From positions 1 to 49,965 of IMG/VR virus record IMGVR_UViG_3300009130_000043: a DNA stretch of 49,965 bases; one strand, given 5' to 3'. Below, in pieces: positions 3,967 through 49,965 of the stretch. The notes under the pieces were generated by a model that was not told where the DNA came from, made no database searches, and was given only the letters and a program-made list of their open reading frames with translations. Source of the stretch: a virus. Position 1 is the first letter of the stretch, and the number at the start of each line of letters is the position of its first letter. The position numbers and the translations under genes were made by a program.

Positions 3967-5040
3967 ATGGCAAAGGCATTTGATGCAAGTAAATTTCGTA
4001 AGAGTATAACGAAATCTGTACCAGGTATGAGTGTAGGTTTTCGTGACCCTGATACATGGGTATCAACAGGTAACTACTGTCTAAACAAGTTGATTTCTAA
4101 TGATTTTAATAAAGGCATTCCGCTAGGCAAAGTAACAGTACTTGCAGGTGAGAGTGGCGCTGGTAAATCATATATTGCGGCAGGTAATATTGTTAAGAAC
4201 GCACAAGACCAAGGTATCTTTGTAGTTCTTATTGATAGTGAAAACGCACTAGATGAAAGTTGGTTACATGCACTTGATGTGAGTACTGACCCAGAAAAAT
4301 TACTAAAACTGAATGTAGCAATGATAGACGATGTTGCTAAAATTATTTCAGATTTTATGAAAGATTATCGTGCTGAATATGAAAATACAGACGATGAAAG
4401 CAGACCAAAAGTTCTATTTGTATTAGACAGTCTTGGTATGATGTTAACACCTACAGACGTTGACCAGTTCAACAAAGGTGATATGAAAGGTGACATGGGA
4501 CGCAAACCAAAGGCTCTAGCGGCTCTTGTGCGTAACTCAGTCAATATGTTCGGTGACTTTAATGTAGGACTAGTTGCTACAAATCACACATACGCATCAC
4601 AAGATATGTTTGACCCAGATGATAAAATTGCTGGCGGTCAAGGCTTTATCTATGCATCAAGTATTGTTATTGCAATGCGCAAACTTAAACTTAAAGTTGA
4701 TGCAGATGGTAATAAAACATCGCAAGTACATGGTATTCGTGCCGCTTGTAAGGTTATGAAAACACGCTATGCAAAACCTTTTGAAAGTGTGCAAGTAGAA
4801 ATTCCTTACGAAACTGGTATGAGCCCATATAGCGGACTAGTAGACTTTTTTGAAGCAAAAGGTATTCTTGTTAAGGTTGGAAACCGTTTACGTTATATGA
4901 CAAAATCAGGCGAAGAAATGATTGAATTCCGTAAGAATTGGACGGATGAAAAATTGGATGTTATCATTAAAGAGTGGAATGATGAAACTTTTGATGATGA
5001 AAAACACGAATTAGAACCACAAGAATTGGAGACCGAGTAA
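3967..5040 (+). CDS. uvsX: UvsX, RecA-like recombinase
   Basis: This ATP-dependent strand-exchange protein forms presynaptic filaments and drives recombination-dependent replication. The Walker A motif GESGAGKS sits at residues 61-68, a Walker B strand (VLFVLDSLGMM) near residue 150, and a RecA-type GGQGFIYASS segment near 220. At 357 residues it is close to the usual length of the family. The C-terminus is acidic. A good SD (ATGGAGTAGA) precedes the ATG. The QueD-like gene follows directly after its stop codon, suggesting cotranscription. Confidence 0.95.
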   Translation: MAKAFDASKFRKSITKSVPGMSVGFRDPDTWVSTGNYCLNKLISNDFNKGIPLGKVTVLAGESGAGKSYIAAGNIVKNAQDQGIFVVLIDSENALDESWLHALDVSTDPEKLLKLNVAMIDDVAKIISDFMKDYRAEYENTDDESRPKVLFVLDSLGMMLTPTDVDQFNKGDMKGDMGRKPKALAALVRNSVNMFGDFNVGLVATNHTYASQDMFDPDDKIAGGQGFIYASSIVIAMRKLKLKVDADGNKTSQVHGIRAACKVMKTRYAKPFESVQVEIPYETGMSPYSGLVDFFEAKGILVKVGNRLRYMTKSGEEMIEFRKNWTDEKLDVIIKEWNDETFDDEKHELEPQELETE

Positions 5041-44530: not shown

Positions 44531-46465
44531 ATGAGTTTATTAAAGAAATTTAGCGAAGTATATGCAAGTAAAAAAGAAGACGAAATGTCTTTAGAAGATT
44601 ACTTAAAATTATGTAAGAAAGACAAATTAGCATATGCATCTGCGGCTGAAAGATTGCTTGACGCAATCGGCGAACCTACTGTAGTAGATACAAGTTCAGA
44701 ACCAAGACTCAGCCGTATTTTTCTAAACCGTACAATTAAAGTTTATCCTGCATTCGAAGACTTTTACGGAATGGAAGAACCAATTGAAAGGCTAGTGTCA
44801 TATTTTAGGCACTCAGCGCAAGGATTAGAAGAAAAGAAACAAGTACTGTATTTGTTAGGACCAGTTGGCGGTGGTAAATCATCACTTGCAGAACGTCTAA
44901 AAGAACTAATGGAAAAACATCCAATCTACGTGCTTAAAGCAGGCGATGAAATTTCACCAGTATATGAGACACCGCTAGGATTGTTTGACCAAAAAGAGTT
45001 TGGTAAAGAGGTAGAAAAACAATATAAAATTCCACAGCGTTATCTTAACGGATTGTTATCTCCGTGGGCAGTGAAACGACTAGAAGAATTTGAAGGTGAT
45101 ATCTCTAAGTTCTCAGTTGTAAAGATGTATCCATCTAAACTGAAACAAGTTGGTATTATGAAAACAGAACCTGGTGATGATAACAACCAAGATATTTCAT
45201 CACTAGTAGGTAAAACAGATATTCGCAAACTAGAATACTTCTCACAGAATGACCCAGACTCATACGCATTTAGTGGTGGTCTATGTCGTGGTAATCAAGG
45301 TATTATGGAATTTGTAGAAATGTTCAAAGCGCCTATAAAAGTTTTACATCCACTACTAACTGCAACACAAGAAGGGAACTATATGGGTACTGAAGGTATC
45401 TCAGCGATTCCATTTAACGGTGTTGTGGTTGCTCACTCTAATGAAAGTGAATGGGAAGCATTTCGTAATAACAAAAACAATGAAGCATTCTTAGATAGGG
45501 TATATATCGTCAAAGTACCTTACTGTTTACGTGCTACAGAAGAAACTCGAATTTATGAAAAGATGCTATCATCTTCTGGACTAGATAATACTAACTGTGC
45601 ACCGCATACGTTAGATATGTTAGCACAGTTCTCCGTGTTATCACGTTTAAAAGAACACACTAATTCAAACTTGGCTGCCAAGATGAGAGTATATGATGGT
45701 GAAAATCTACATGATGTAGACCCCAAAGCAAAGACAATGCAAGAATATAAAGATACTGCCGGCGTAGACGAAGGTATGTATGGTATGAGTACACGTTTTG
45801 CATTTAAGATTTTGTCACAAGCATTTAACTTTGATGCGAATGAAGTAGCGGCAGACCCAGTGCATCTTATGTATGTATTAGAAACTGCAATCAAACGTGA
45901 GCAATTTCCAGAAGACACAGAGAACAAATTACTTGGATTTATTAAAGACCACTTGAGTGTTAAATACGCAGAACAAGTAGGCAATGAAATTCAAAAAGCA
46001 TATTTAGAAAGTTATAATGAATATGGTCAAAACTTATTTGACAGATATTTAGATTATGCTGACCACTGGATTCAAAATATTGATTTCAAAGACCCTGATA
46101 CTGGTAACCTATTTGACCGTTCTGTTCTTAATGAAGAACTAGAGAAGATTGAAAAGCCGGCAGGCATTGCCAACCCGAAAGATTTTCGTAATGAAGTTGT
46201 CAATTGGGTCTTACGTGCAAGAGGCAACCATGAAGGTAATAACCCACCATGGACTGCATATGAAAAGATGCGTGAAGTTATTGAAACTAAAATGTTCGCA
46301 GGAACAGAAGAATTACTTCCAGTAATCTCATTCGGTAGTAAGAAGAACAAAGAAGACCAATCTAAGCATGATGAATTTGTTGATAGAATGGTAGAGAAAG
46401 GTTATACTGAACGCCAAGTCAAGAGGTTAGTAGAATGGTATATGAGAGTGCAGAAGTCTAACTAA
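44531..46465 (+). CDS. prkA: PrkA (YeaG) family serine/threonine protein kinase
   Basis: This 644-residue protein is as long as E. coli YeaG (644). The AAA+ half has LLGPVGGGKSS (109-118) as Walker A, and GIMEFVEMFKA, a PrkA signature, near residue 260. The C-terminal half carries the kinase-like region with EEKLEKIEKPAGIANPKDFR-type helices (here ELEKIEKPAGIANPKDFRN near residue 540). In bacteria PrkA is linked to starvation and stress adaptation. It begins a three-gene phage operon and has a GGAGAG SD. Confidence 0.93.
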   Translation: MSLLKKFSEVYASKKEDEMSLEDYLKLCKKDKLAYASAAERLLDAIGEPTVVDTSSEPRLSRIFLNRTIKVYPAFEDFYGMEEPIERLVSYFRHSAQGLEEKKQVLYLLGPVGGGKSSLAERLKELMEKHPIYVLKAGDEISPVYETPLGLFDQKEFGKEVEKQYKIPQRYLNGLLSPWAVKRLEEFEGDISKFSVVKMYPSKLKQVGIMKTEPGDDNNQDISSLVGKTDIRKLEYFSQNDPDSYAFSGGLCRGNQGIMEFVEMFKAPIKVLHPLLTATQEGNYMGTEGISAIPFNGVVVAHSNESEWEAFRNNKNNEAFLDRVYIVKVPYCLRATEETRIYEKMLSSSGLDNTNCAPHTLDMLAQFSVLSRLKEHTNSNLAAKMRVYDGENLHDVDPKAKTMQEYKDTAGVDEGMYGMSTRFAFKILSQAFNFDANEVAADPVHLMYVLETAIKREQFPEDTENKLLGFIKDHLSVKYAEQVGNEIQKAYLESYNEYGQNLFDRYLDYADHWIQNIDFKDPDTGNLFDRSVLNEELEKIEKPAGIANPKDFRNEVVNWVLRARGNHEGNNPPWTAYEKMREVIETKMFAGTEELLPVISFGSKKNKEDQSKHDEFVDRMVEKGYTERQVKRLVEWYMRVQKSN

Positions 46466-46474
46466 GGACAGAGC

Positions 46475-47749
46475 ATGGGAAACACAATTATTGATAGAAG
46501 AAAAAACCCAGGAGGGAAATCTTCTAGTAACCGACAAAAGTTTATCAAGCGTACTAAAGATGAAATACGTAAGAGTATACATGACACGCTTGGTAAACGA
46601 AGCATCAAAGGTTCTGGTGATGACCAGGATGTTGTAATCACACGTAAAGGCATTGACGAGCCTCAGTTTAATCATAATCCAAACAGTGGGTCTAGGGATA
46701 TCGTTCTTCCAGGCAATGAAGATTTTGTCGTAGACGATTTATTACAGAAACCACCAAGCGGTCAAGGTCAGGGCGCAGGACCAAAGGGTTCTAACGAAGG
46801 TATAGGTGAAGACGAATTTGCATTTGCATTAAGCAATGACGAATTTGTTAACATCTTGTTTGAAGACTTAGAACTACCACATATGATTTCTAAAGAAAAC
46901 AAAGCAGTTGAGCGTTATGAGTTATCACGTGCTGGTTATACTAACGATGGTAATCCGGCTCAATTAAACTTAGAACAGAGTATGGTTAATGCTATTGGTC
47001 GTAAGATTGCGTTGCGTACACCTAAGTTGAGAAAGATTAAAGAATTAGAAGCAGAATTAGAGACCTGCAAAGATGAACAACGCAGAGTAGAGATAGAAGA
47101 AGAAATCAAATCTCTACGCACACGTGCTAACGCAGTTGCGTTTGTAGACCCAGTAGATTTACGATATAACAATTTCAGTAAGAAACCATCTCCAATATCA
47201 CAAGCAGTTGTATTCTTTGTAATGGATGTAAGTGCAAGTATGAGCGAACAACACAAAGACTTAGCAAAACGGTTCTTTATGTTACTTAATTTATTCGTTT
47301 CACGTAAATACAAGAAAGTAGAATGCGTTTTCATTAGGCATCACATTGAAGCACGTGAATGTACAGAAGAAGAATTCTTTAATGACAGAGAGAATGGCGG
47401 TACAGTAGTATCAAGTGCATTTGTTAAAGCAAAAGAAATTATGAAAGATAGATATCCTACAAATGAATGGAATATTTACTTTGCACAAGCAAGTGACGGA
47501 GACAATTGGGGGCATGATAATGAAGTATTGAAAGATATACTTCTAAAAGATATCCTTCCAGAGACACAATACTTTAGTTATATTCAAGTTGGTAAGACTA
47601 GAAGTTATGCACATATGGGCGGGAACCTGATTGGTGAATACAAAGAGTTAGAAGACAAATGCGAAAACATGATTTCTAAACAGATAGAAAATACAGAAGA
47701 TATATATCCAGTGTTCAGAGAAATATTTAAAGTTAAAGGTGCAAAGTAA
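46475..47749 (+). CDS. yeaH: YeaH/YhbH family protein (DUF444)
   Basis: YeaH is the partner of PrkA in many bacteria. The 424 residues match the E. coli length. The N-terminal RRKNPGGKSSSNRQKFIKR is the family start, followed by the central FVEDLELP-type segment (here ILFEDLELPHM) and the C-terminal von Willebrand A-like domain with the MIDAS motif DVSASMS near residue 250. The protein is cytosolic; how it acts with PrkA is not known. The last base of its stop is the first base of the spoVR ATG. Confidence 0.93.
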   Translation: MGNTIIDRRKNPGGKSSSNRQKFIKRTKDEIRKSIHDTLGKRSIKGSGDDQDVVITRKGIDEPQFNHNPNSGSRDIVLPGNEDFVVDDLLQKPPSGQGQGAGPKGSNEGIGEDEFAFALSNDEFVNILFEDLELPHMISKENKAVERYELSRAGYTNDGNPAQLNLEQSMVNAIGRKIALRTPKLRKIKELEAELETCKDEQRRVEIEEEIKSLRTRANAVAFVDPVDLRYNNFSKKPSPISQAVVFFVMDVSASMSEQHKDLAKRFFMLLNLFVSRKYKKVECVFIRHHIEARECTEEEFFNDRENGGTVVSSAFVKAKEIMKDRYPTNEWNIYFAQASDGDNWGHDNEVLKDILLKDILPETQYFSYIQVGKTRSYAHMGGNLIGEYKELEDKCENMISKQIENTEDIYPVFREIFKVKGAK

Positions 47750-49248
47750 TGGGATTATTATATAAAGGTTCTAGTTGGAATTTTGATACTTTGTACAGCA
47801 CAATGGATGCTTGTGAAGAAATCGCTATTAACGATATGGGACTTGATTGCTTCCCTAATCAGATTGAAATCATTACAGTAGAACAAATGCTTGATGCATA
47901 TTCGAGTGTAGGTATGCCATTAATGTACAATCACTGGAGTTTCGGTAAGAGTTTCATTGGTAATATGAAACAATATACGAAAGGCGAAATGGGCCTTGCA
48001 TATGAGTTAGTTATTAACTCCAATCCGTGTATCAATTATCTTATGGAAGAAAACTCAATGACTACACAAGCATTGGTCATTGCACATGCGGCATTTGGAC
48101 ATAATCACTTCTTTAAGAATAACTATCTGTTTAAGCAATGGACATCGCCTGATGCTATTGTTGACTATCTAGTATTTGCTAAGAATTATATACGTGAATG
48201 TGAAGAAAGTTATGGGGCAGATATTGTTGAAGAAACACTAGACGCTTGCCATGCCATTCAGTATCAGAGTATTAACAAATACAAAAGACCTAATAAATTG
48301 AATGCACGTGATGAATTCGAAAAGCAACTTAAACGAAGTGAGTATTTACAGTCACAAGTGAATGATTTATGGCGTACGTTACCCGATAAAAAAGAAGAAG
48401 AAAAAGACGAAGAATTTACTTGGCCTACAGAACCAGAAGAAAACTTATTGTACTTCTTAGAAAAACATTCACCAGTACTTGCTCCTTGGCAACGTGAGAT
48501 TTGTCGTATTGTTAGACGTATTGCACAATACTTCTACCCGCAATACCAAACGAAAGTAATGAATGAAGGTTTTGCTTCTTTTACACATCACTATATCTTT
48601 AATGAACTTTATAATCAGGGTAAAGTAGATGATGGTGCTATGCTTGAATTCTTTAGATTACATAGCGCAGTATTATATCAACCATCTTTTAACTCACCTC
48701 ATTACAGTGGATTTAACCCTTATGCACTAGGGTTTGCTATTTTAAAAGATGTGCAACGCATTTGTCAAACGCCAGATAAAGAAGATGAAGCATGGTTTCC
48801 ACATATTGCAGGTACAGAATGGCGTACTACAATTAAAGATATTGTAGCAAACTACCGTGATGAAAGTGCGATATTGCAATTCTTGGGACCGAAAGTAATT
48901 AGAGACTGGAGATTGTTCAGTCTGCATGATGAAGAACACTATGACAATTACCATGTAACTGATATTCATAATGAACTAGGATTTAAGCGCATTAGAAAAG
49001 CATTGAGTTCTAGTTATGAAACAGCGGCGATGATACCGGATATTCAGATTACTAATGCAGATGTGACAGAGACTAGAGAACTGACATTGCAACATTCCAG
49101 TTATAAAGGAAAGAGATTAGACAAAGTAACTGCAAATAACGTACTATTGCATGTACAAAAGTTATGGGGATATGACGTTAAGTTATATTCATCTTATGAT
49201 GATGTTACCATTGATATGTATGAATGTAAACGTGAGCCGAGAAAATAA
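47749..49248 (+). CDS. spoVR: SpoVR (YcgB) family protein
   Basis: SpoVR is a conserved bacterial protein named for spore cortex formation in Bacillus, present also in non-sporulating bacteria. The family landmarks MPLMYNHWSFGKSF, GLAYELVINSNP, AHAAFGHNHFFKNNYLF, LAPWQREICRIVRRIAQYFYPQ and MNEGFASFTHHYI are all present, and the 499-residue length is complete. The conserved His and Glu may bind metal. It is translated coupled to yeaH, so this is a co-selected cassette. Molecular function is unknown. Confidence 0.94.
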   Translation: MGLLYKGSSWNFDTLYSTMDACEEIAINDMGLDCFPNQIEIITVEQMLDAYSSVGMPLMYNHWSFGKSFIGNMKQYTKGEMGLAYELVINSNPCINYLMEENSMTTQALVIAHAAFGHNHFFKNNYLFKQWTSPDAIVDYLVFAKNYIRECEESYGADIVEETLDACHAIQYQSINKYKRPNKLNARDEFEKQLKRSEYLQSQVNDLWRTLPDKKEEEKDEEFTWPTEPEENLLYFLEKHSPVLAPWQREICRIVRRIAQYFYPQYQTKVMNEGFASFTHHYIFNELYNQGKVDDGAMLEFFRLHSAVLYQPSFNSPHYSGFNPYALGFAILKDVQRICQTPDKEDEAWFPHIAGTEWRTTIKDIVANYRDESAILQFLGPKVIRDWRLFSLHDEEHYDNYHVTDIHNELGFKRIRKALSSSYETAAMIPDIQITNADVTETRELTLQHSSYKGKRLDKVTANNVLLHVQKLWGYDVKLYSSYDDVTIDMYECKREPRK

Positions 49249-49343
49249 TGAAAAAGAAGAAATGGGGTCTAGTACAAGTAGATAAAACTATGGAAATGTA
49301 TCTACGTCTCCGTAAAAAAGCCAAAAAAAAGCGCACCGAATGA
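49248..49343 (+). CDS. Tiny basic peptide (31 aa)
   Basis: The ATG overlaps the spoVR stop (TAATG). The product is Lys/Arg-rich (MKKKKWGLVQVD and LRLRKKAKKKRTE). The stop codon lies in the loop of the terminator. The coupling supports expression, but it may have no function of its own. Confidence 0.5.
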   Translation: MKKKKWGLVQVDKTMEMYLRLRKKAKKKRTE

Positions 49344-49358
49344 TGCGCTATGTTTTTT
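49330..49358. terminator. Bidirectional terminator
   Basis: AGCGCA (49330-49335) pairs with TGCGCT (49344-49349). A T run follows on the + strand, and an A run precedes it, giving a T run on the minus strand. It separates the + strand spoVR operon from the minus-strand cluster. Confidence 0.75.
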
Positions 49359-49360
49359 AG

Positions 49361-49495
49361 TTAACTTGTTTTGTATATTTTATGCTTAAATTCAGAAATC
49401 TCATTGGCTTTTTGATAATAGCCTCTGTTTCTTAATTCTCTAATTGCCATACAGTAACTTCTGTATTCCATTGCTTTGATAAATCTTTTAAACAT
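49361..49495 (-). CDS. Small protein with REL-x-x-x-GYY-x-x-A motif, paralogue 1
   Basis: 44 residues, basic. IRELRNRGYYQKANEI matches the C-terminal motif of the adjacent 60-residue protein (ARELARQGYYEEAKKL). The ATG overlaps that gene's stop codon (TAATG). Last gene of the minus-strand operon. Confidence 0.65.
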   Translation of the reverse strand: MFKRFIKAMEYRSYCMAIRELRNRGYYQKANEISEFKHKIYKTS

Positions 49496-49677
49496 TACTT
49501 ACTTTCCAACATTAACTTTTTTGCTTCTTCGTAGTAGCCTTGTCTAGCAAGTTCTCTAGCCGCTCTAGCACGACCGGCAGATTCACCGATTGACCAAACA
49601 CCCATTACAAATTTTAAAAAAGCCTGTTTAGTTACCTCACATACTTGACAAGTTTTATTATATATTGCGATTGTCAT
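49495..49677 (-). CDS. Small protein with REL-x-x-x-GYY-x-x-A motif, paralogue 2
   Basis: 60 residues. The C-terminal half SIGESAGRARAARELARQGYYEEAKKLML is an Arg/Ala-rich helix-turn-helix, like small proteins of marine Alphaproteobacteria. The N-terminal CQVC might bind metal. The ATG at 49677 overlaps the upstream stop (TAATG), and is preferred to an ATG 9 nt upstream. Coupled to its neighbours on the minus strand. Confidence 0.7.
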   Translation of the reverse strand: MTIAIYNKTCQVCEVTKQAFLKFVMGVWSIGESAGRARAARELARQGYYEEAKKLMLESK

Positions 49678-49832
49678 TACACCCATCCTTTTAAGTTTGA
49701 ATTTTCACGCATCAACAGTCTTTGTCTACGTTCTAAATCAACCAAGTCTTTAGATTGAGAAAGATATTCGTATTCAATTTCTTGTTGTGTTTTTGGTTTA
49801 ATTTTTTTAAATATTTTTTTTATAAAAGTCAT
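49677..49832 (-). CDS. Small basic protein (51 aa)
   Basis: The N-terminus is very basic and amphipathic (TFIKKIFKKIKPKTQQ), followed by a helix (YLSQSKDLVDLERRQRLLM). It resembles short regulators found next to DUF1127 genes in Alphaproteobacteria, such as DUF3563-type proteins; this is tentative. Start and stop overlap both neighbours (ATGA and TAATG). Confidence 0.65.
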   Translation of the reverse strand: MTFIKKIFKKIKPKTQQEIEYEYLSQSKDLVDLERRQRLLMRENSNLKGWV

Positions 49833-49965
49833 TTTTTGTTTCTTCCTTCCGCTCTCATAGTTTTGGCAATACGTCCAATATCACCTCTGTTTATGCCGAT
49901 ATCTTTTAGTTCTCTATCTGAAAGAGCACCTAATGACCTTCGTGTAGCCTTTTCATTTGAGACCT
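49829..49965 (-). CDS. DUF1127 domain protein (5' truncated by window)
   Basis: The visible 45 residues contain the complete DUF1127 core, RRSLGALSDRELKDIGINRGDI, then GRIAKTMRAEGRNKK. DUF1127 proteins are short Arg-rich regulators common in Alphaproteobacteria and linked there to phosphate metabolism and RNA turnover. The start is beyond the window. A phage copy is likely host-derived and may redirect host regulation. First visible gene of the minus-strand operon. Confidence 0.85.
   Translation of the reverse strand, partial: VSNEKATRRSLGALSDRELKDIGINRGDIGRIAKTMRAEGRNKK

Follow-up and report, generated by a model that had tools for sequence, protein, structure and literature searches.

The window analysed here, by which we mean the whole of a 49,965-base virus record carrying T4-like phage genes (as read from their translations), ends in four very small genes, and these appear to be the 3' part (B-C-D-E) of a modular cassette, whose first gene, A, and whose leader can be deduced from a sister contig. 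We consider that the best explanation, with a probability of about one half, is a late host-takeover cassette, in which small basic helical proteins would be placed under a cis-acting RNA leader; its function is proposed from the arrangement of the genes. Comparison of the leaders strongly supports a new family of structured RNA.

The first-pass annotation had described four overlapping genes on the minus strand at 49361-49965, and all the open reading frames are found there (Table 1). B and C are joined by ATGA, C and D by TAATG, D and E by TAATG. These overlapping junctions, and the match of B to DUF1127 (PF06568; 43.6 bits, above the curated cut-off of 23.3), bear out the reading of this region as a coupled small-protein operon containing a phage DUF1127. 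The C protein of the window scores 26.7 bits against DUF3563 (PF12086), that is 0.2 bits under the cut-off of 26.9, while the C protein of a relative (L018) scores 30.5 bits and all 21 members of the C alignment match PF12086 at E < 0.01.

Table 1. Positions of the cassette genes and of neighbouring features in the window.
Feature	Position	Strand	Remarks
Gene B	49829..49965, ORF 49963-49829	minus	DUF1127; 44 codons visible, 5' end cut off by the window edge
Gene C	49832-49677	minus	51 aa, basic, DUF3563-like; ATGA overlap with B
Gene D	49686-49495	minus	63 aa, or 60 aa if started at the inner ATG (49677); helical; RARAARELARQGYYEEAKKLM
Gene E	49495-49361	minus	44 aa, MFKRFIKAMEYRSYCMAIRELRNRGYYQKANEISEFKHKIYKTS, D-like
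C/D joint	49677..49700	minus	codons of the C-terminal tail NLKGWV, which contain the D ribosome-binding site and lead into TAATG
Bidirectional intrinsic terminator	49330-49349	both	terminator-like in either direction
prkA	44531	plus	
yeaH-type DUF444 gene	46475	plus	
spoVR	47749	plus	
31-aa ORF MKKKKWGLVQVDKTMEMYLRLRKKAKKKRTE	49248-49343	plus	lysine/arginine-rich, after spoVR, ends in the shared terminator

Genes as short as these might be random small open frames. We regard this as having a negligible chance, against which stand the conserved order, the coupling, the low dN/dS and hundreds of relatives. The same genes in the same order are found again in sister contigs and in many more. Between the window and one sister contig, L003, dN/dS is 0.31 for B, 0.06 for C, 0.17 for D and 0.06 for E, the differences being concentrated in third codon positions; a comparison of 15 E genes gave a median dN/dS of 0.13 and 1984 differences at third codon positions, as opposed to 842 at second positions. 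As measured by these ratios, B, C, D and E are all under purifying selection. The recurrence of the order in other contigs, together with the low dN/dS, means that the genes of the window are not due to chance.

The terminator stands between the B-C-D-E genes and a convergent plus-strand prkA-yeaH-spoVR operon. This operon, at 44531-49248, is a full prkA-yeaH (DUF444)-spoVR operon in a T4-like phage, with three full-length genes close to cellular equivalogs, PrkA being at best 70% identical to cellular copies in a search of 299 genomes; the only annotated phage records with SpoVR are those of four uncultured huge phages and four Thermus phages.

In the sister contig L003 (IMGVR_UViG_3300048031_000460), these four genes again adjoin the same spoVR gene; identity to the window is 92% for D and 96% for C. 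Its DUF1127 gene, B, is seen in full (57 aa), and upstream of it lies a fifth gene, A (4040-4216, 58 aa, 'WAKTEY..DWQ.AY'). The complete order in L003 is a late promoter TATAAATA, then a 5'-terminal hairpin and a structured leader RNA (about 150 nt of leader), then A, then B-C-D-E. A predicted operon promoter, which the first-pass annotation proposed to look for by extending the sequence, was seen in the sister contig; the copy belonging to the window itself would lie just beyond its edge. A gene for an IscU-like iron-sulphur scaffold protein lies a few kb from the cassette in L003 (2-232) and in L010 (110-502), and in L012 an IscA-like gene follows the cassette; these were read from translations.

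From IMG/VR searches, whose queries were single proteins as well as alignments of A, DUF1127 and D, we built profiles and assigned the small open reading frames in 266 sequences (the D and B groups were later corrected). The cassette is present in more than 100 marine virus contigs. The contigs of IMG/VR are partly redundant, which inflates raw counts; counting instead distinct protein sets, which are not independent events either, we obtained 189 sets, in which the order ACD is the most frequent (38), followed by B alone (37), BD (21), BDE (17), ABDE (13), ADB (9), and AC, ABD and AD (8 each). Neighbours within the cassette mostly overlap or are at most 10 nt apart, the spacing of C and D often being slightly larger. 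B and C usually stand in for each other at a single position; we saw the two together, in the order of the window, only in the lineage of the window. All five families A-E have a net positive charge. D was found in at least 297 viral stretches, and E has a mean column identity of 68% (20 sequences). The description of the operon as built around DUF1127 has to be abandoned: DUF1127 is an optional slot, occupied by DUF3563 instead in ACD cassettes and missing in AD cassettes. As judged from these arrangements, the constant partner linked to the RNA is gene A, not DUF1127. B-D-E cassettes having neither A nor the RNA are common, which means that neither is required for the proteins to be retained.

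Some further observations concern the surroundings of these cassettes. A conserved protein of about 105 aa (..NKNGYEIRTEVL..), with no family match, is encoded about 650 nt 3' of many ACD cassettes (58 loci, e.g. L052 and L018:2738-3058). Host-type genes adjoin the cassettes of L258, L060 and L075: a plastocyanin/azurin-type copper protein, a fatty acid desaturase and a class 3 lipase. There is also a second group of phage DUF1127 proteins (WRYWNYLATWREHR..DKTMRGRG; L107-L111 and similar), which stand alone, without cassette or RNA.

Many B and C proteins end in the tail N-x-N-L-[KR]-G-[WSF]-V, which is present in 45 of the 55 B and in 7 of the 11 C proteins whose gene overlaps a downstream D gene. 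Elsewhere it was seen in one B protein with an adjacent, non-overlapping D, and in none of the 89 remaining proteins. The codons of the tail carry an AAAGG-like ribosome-binding site and lead into TAATG. We interpret the NLKGWV-type tail as most likely a coupling element. The D protein of L017 shares another tail, YEPGDHYMRGKxVATWKGKAHA, with a second DUF1127 gene of L266 and of other contigs: pieces are exchanged even inside these tiny genes.

The D protein of the window carries RELARQGYYEEA and the E protein RELRNRGYYQKA. They had been taken for paralogues, and probably are: profile-profile alignment gives probabilities of 72-87%. That these paralogues may be diverged DUF1127 proteins did not survive the comparison, the clean D profile reaching only 4.9% probability against the B profile and the E profile 10.3%. 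An initial value of 81% for D came from four DUF1127 genes which had been misgrouped with D, and it fell to the 4.9% just given once they were removed. Neither D nor E of the window matches the DUF1127 profile (PF06568). Searches of Pfam and PHROGs returned nothing for A, nothing for E and, for D, nothing that was repeated, save for the misgrouped DUF1127 rows. The AlphaFold model of D (pLDDT 77), whose alignment included the few misgrouped DUF1127 rows, consists of one long and one short helix, and that of A (pLDDT 67) of one short and one long helix; a fold search with the D model gave no PDB match at E < 4. We also scanned 84,980 cellular genomes with a D-only alignment and found D at two loci only (L266 and L267), both on contigs with phage features: in L267 a DNA polymerase gene lies beside the cassette, and in L266 there are the leader RNA and a gene of the ALAS-like type, which is known from aquatic phages (PMC11480375). 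We did not retain these loci as cellular D genes, as they look like phage contigs binned into MAGs.

The stretch 5' of A is strikingly conserved among contigs. In an alignment of 29 different leaders, with a structure of 31 pairs, 93.2% of the cells are paired, against 82.9% in shuffles, none of 500 shuffles being as high. Cells changed on both sides number 83, against 29 in the shuffles (again 0 of 500), and the pairing falls to 27-44% when the partners are slid. The loop of the P1 hairpin is NANAGA; P2 and P3 vary in sequence with their pairing kept; P4 is CCGG..CCGG; and P5 (UGCUU..AAGCA) precedes the ribosome-binding site of A. Hexaloop hairpins of the P1 type are present in 1-4 copies per leader, with a single copy in 22 of 30 leaders. 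The unpaired stretches of the leader, loops included, are conserved as well. A covariance model matches on the coding strand only, directly upstream of A, and recovers divergent leaders on which it was not trained (L087, L079 and L065) with E about 1e-6; on 56 loci from the DUF1127 scan it gave nothing convincing. A sequence profile trained without the lineage of the window finds the leader of L003 at E 3e-9. For the leaders searched, Rfam gave no match at the gathering threshold, permissive searches gave nothing convincing, and no match was found in cultured phages. By eye, we saw no conserved case of the leader pairing with the ribosome-binding site. Two particular contacts, one in which the loops of P1 and P2 would kiss and one in which the P5 loop would pair with the ribosome-binding site, can be drawn in some sequences and are lost in others, and were not kept.

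We then counted the RNA in cassettes. Given enough upstream sequence, it is present in 76 of the 82 distinct cassettes with a typical A protein (TEY..DW), the six others giving no detectable match, in 12 of the 26 with other A proteins, and in none of the 76 without A. Independently of this, an exact search with a 23-nt piece of the RNA alone found 117 contigs, and all the 108 which extend more than 118 nt downstream have A as their first cassette gene. The RNA is therefore tied to A rather than to DUF1127. A membrane protein of 319 aa is encoded near the RNA in 50 of the 117 loci (e.g. L243, L327 and L361) and matches nothing in Pfam, PHROGs or PDB; the idea that it could be a phosphate transporter was dropped, as none of these searches gave a supporting match.

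The T4 late promoter sequence, TATAAATA, stands 5' of 65 of 83 distinct copies of the RNA, nearly always at a distance of 32-62 nt; the corresponding number for the opposite strand is 11. In an initial set of leaders it was found in 67 of 118 cases, against 41 of 1180 random stretches. The cassette with its leader would form a T4-type late transcription unit with a predicted promoter. Between promoter and RNA there is a 5'-terminal hairpin (mean z -2.3 over 62 segments, and -4.8 in the lineage of the window), whose sequence differs widely between contigs (median similarity 0.58) with the fold retained. For pelagimyophages the prediction of late promoters was reported to fail (PMC7029224); our results indicate late promoters of the T4 type in related marine phages.

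The explanation which we favour can be put as follows. After the late switch, the operon would be transcribed from the TATAAATA promoter. The array of hairpins, the last of which lies just 5' of the ribosome-binding site of A, would stabilise the message, and the leader would set, in cis, the translation of A together with that of all genes coupled to A, coupled translation yielding very small basic helical proteins in a fixed ratio. The leader would most likely bind a protein (perhaps A) or another ligand. As cellular DUF1127 proteins act via RNA and RNase E (CcaF1) or via PhoR, the product of the B/C slot (DUF1127 or DUF3563) probably acts on host RNA turnover or signalling; the presence of DUF3563 in the same slot as DUF1127 suggests, though this is a guess, a role shared by both. 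A takeover of host regulation by the cassette is plausible. Marine T4-like phages might even share an as yet unrecognised regulatory system, in which ligand- or protein-binding RNAs of a new class, with a variable array of hairpins, would control, and might form a complex with, three new families of tiny proteins and DUF1127 or DUF3563, and so reprogram host RNA metabolism late in infection, a proposal which we put forward tentatively and with some doubt. More cautiously, one could see in the cassette a variant late operon of phages, preceded by a structured leader.

The leaders of T4 gene 32 and of ompA protect their messages from RNase E, and the leader described here might likewise be a passive stabiliser, its 5' hairpin and stems shielding a strong late message from RNase E with no ligand involved. 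The hairpin after the late promoter, which keeps its fold despite its differing sequence, is in line with such a role. However, the rest of the leader is largely conserved in sequence, loops too, and goes only with A, whereas a passive element should be swappable among operons; we find this account rather improbable. It is also unlikely, in our opinion, that the leader is cleaved off and works in trans, as a small RNA with 1-4 NANAGA-loop hairpins which would tie up a host RNA-binding protein or pair with host mRNAs, the small proteins being its partners as in the CIN1 locus. An association of DUF1127 with hairpin RNAs is already known (PMC10253847), the copy number of the hairpin varies with its loop kept, and conservation extends to the unpaired stretches of the RNA, all of which would agree with an action in trans. 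Yet the RNA follows A: it is present in many ACD and AD cassettes, which lack DUF1127, and is never found where A is missing. Moreover, 22 of the 30 leaders have a single such hairpin, and the loop motif of CcsR, CUCCUCCC, occurs in none of 29 leaders.

A further reading, close to that of the first-pass annotation, has a host-derived DUF1127 regulator acting on phosphate signalling (through PhoR), with its paralogues assisting it. DUF1127 proteins of several bacteria do rescue a triple mutant of Agrobacterium, and those of Agrobacterium and of E. coli interact with PhoR (PMC12501420). But the slot is optional and exchanged for DUF3563, D is not DUF1127-like, and no phosphate genes were identified next to the cassette, so that we hold this to be quite unlikely. 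The late takeover cassette under a cis-acting leader is the reading which we retain.

DUF1127 had also been invoked in support of an alphaproteobacterial host. This is not supported: DUF1127 is found in E. coli and Salmonella as well (PMC12501420, PMC11707872), and the phage Melnitz, which with its variants is the only cultured phage having D, infects OM43. OM43 is not alphaproteobacterial, and a transfer of host from SAR11 has been argued for this phage (PMC9004378). In favour of such a host, cultured phage records with a DUF1127 match infect Alphaproteobacteria in 19 of 23 cases, most of the matches being weak. An alphaproteobacterial host for the window phage is possible. In Roseobacter podoviruses, a DUF1127-like open reading frame lies between MazG and ribonucleotide reductase (SIO1, L516, 1501-1623; CRP-118, L517, 1501-1665); the SIO1 annotation does not include it.

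These results add a new family of structured RNA, together with three families of proteins for which no relatives are known, all linked to one another in abundant marine phages, whose tiny genes are usually overlooked. The exchange of DUF1127 for DUF3563 in one slot gives a testable entry to the roles of both in phages.

Finally, the cassette may be set beside systems already described. The freshwater-2 RNA (RF02980) is likewise a structured phage leader which follows a late-type promoter and ends at a ribosome-binding site. The leader of L003 scores 20.3 bits against it (cut-off 49.9), and freshwater-2 was rejected as a homologue: in 120 contigs with its core, none of the families A-E was found downstream. 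It precedes a different gene (MGRPLKIxKA..), which looks like a structural gene; in all 26 listed examples (L385-L464 and further loci), a TAAATA-type promoter is followed by the RNA and then by this gene. In Melnitz (an OM43 phage, Kyanoviridae), gp44-gp45-gp46 correspond to an A-like protein, D and DUF1127; no leader RNA was detected there, and its A falls in the other A subgroup.

The CIN1 locus (ccaF1-CcsR1-4) of Rhodobacter and other Alphaproteobacteria resembles the cassette in that a small DUF1127 gene is co-transcribed with an array of stem-loop RNAs, the repeated CcsR hairpin RNAs being processed by RNase E with CcaF1 (PMC10253847). In contrast, the phage RNA is a 5' leader of A, tied to A rather than to DUF1127 and present without DUF1127 in ACD and AD cassettes; the phage leaders lack the CUCCUCCC loops, and nothing known corresponds to A, D or E. 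On the searches made, no known relative was found for the RNA nor for three of the cassette's five protein families, and CIN1, the nearest known arrangement, fails on both features compared. The C protein and its 20 relatives match DUF3563 (PF12086) at E < 0.01, the copy of the window staying just under the curated cut-off, and they differ from it by their context in a phage cassette; in the literature searched, we found no paper on DUF3563 and none on phage-encoded DUF1127. Cellular DUF1127 proteins bind RNA and aid processing by RNase E (CcaF1; PMC10253847) or bind PhoR (PMC12501420). One DUF1127 gene, in S. meliloti, is itself controlled by a leader through attenuation (PMC12218461). Like the cellular proteins (YjiS, CcaF1, the SDPs of Agrobacterium), phage B scores far over the Pfam cut-off and is basic; it differs from them in being phage-encoded and part of a coupled cassette, in which its relatives often end in the NLKGWV tail that joins them to D.
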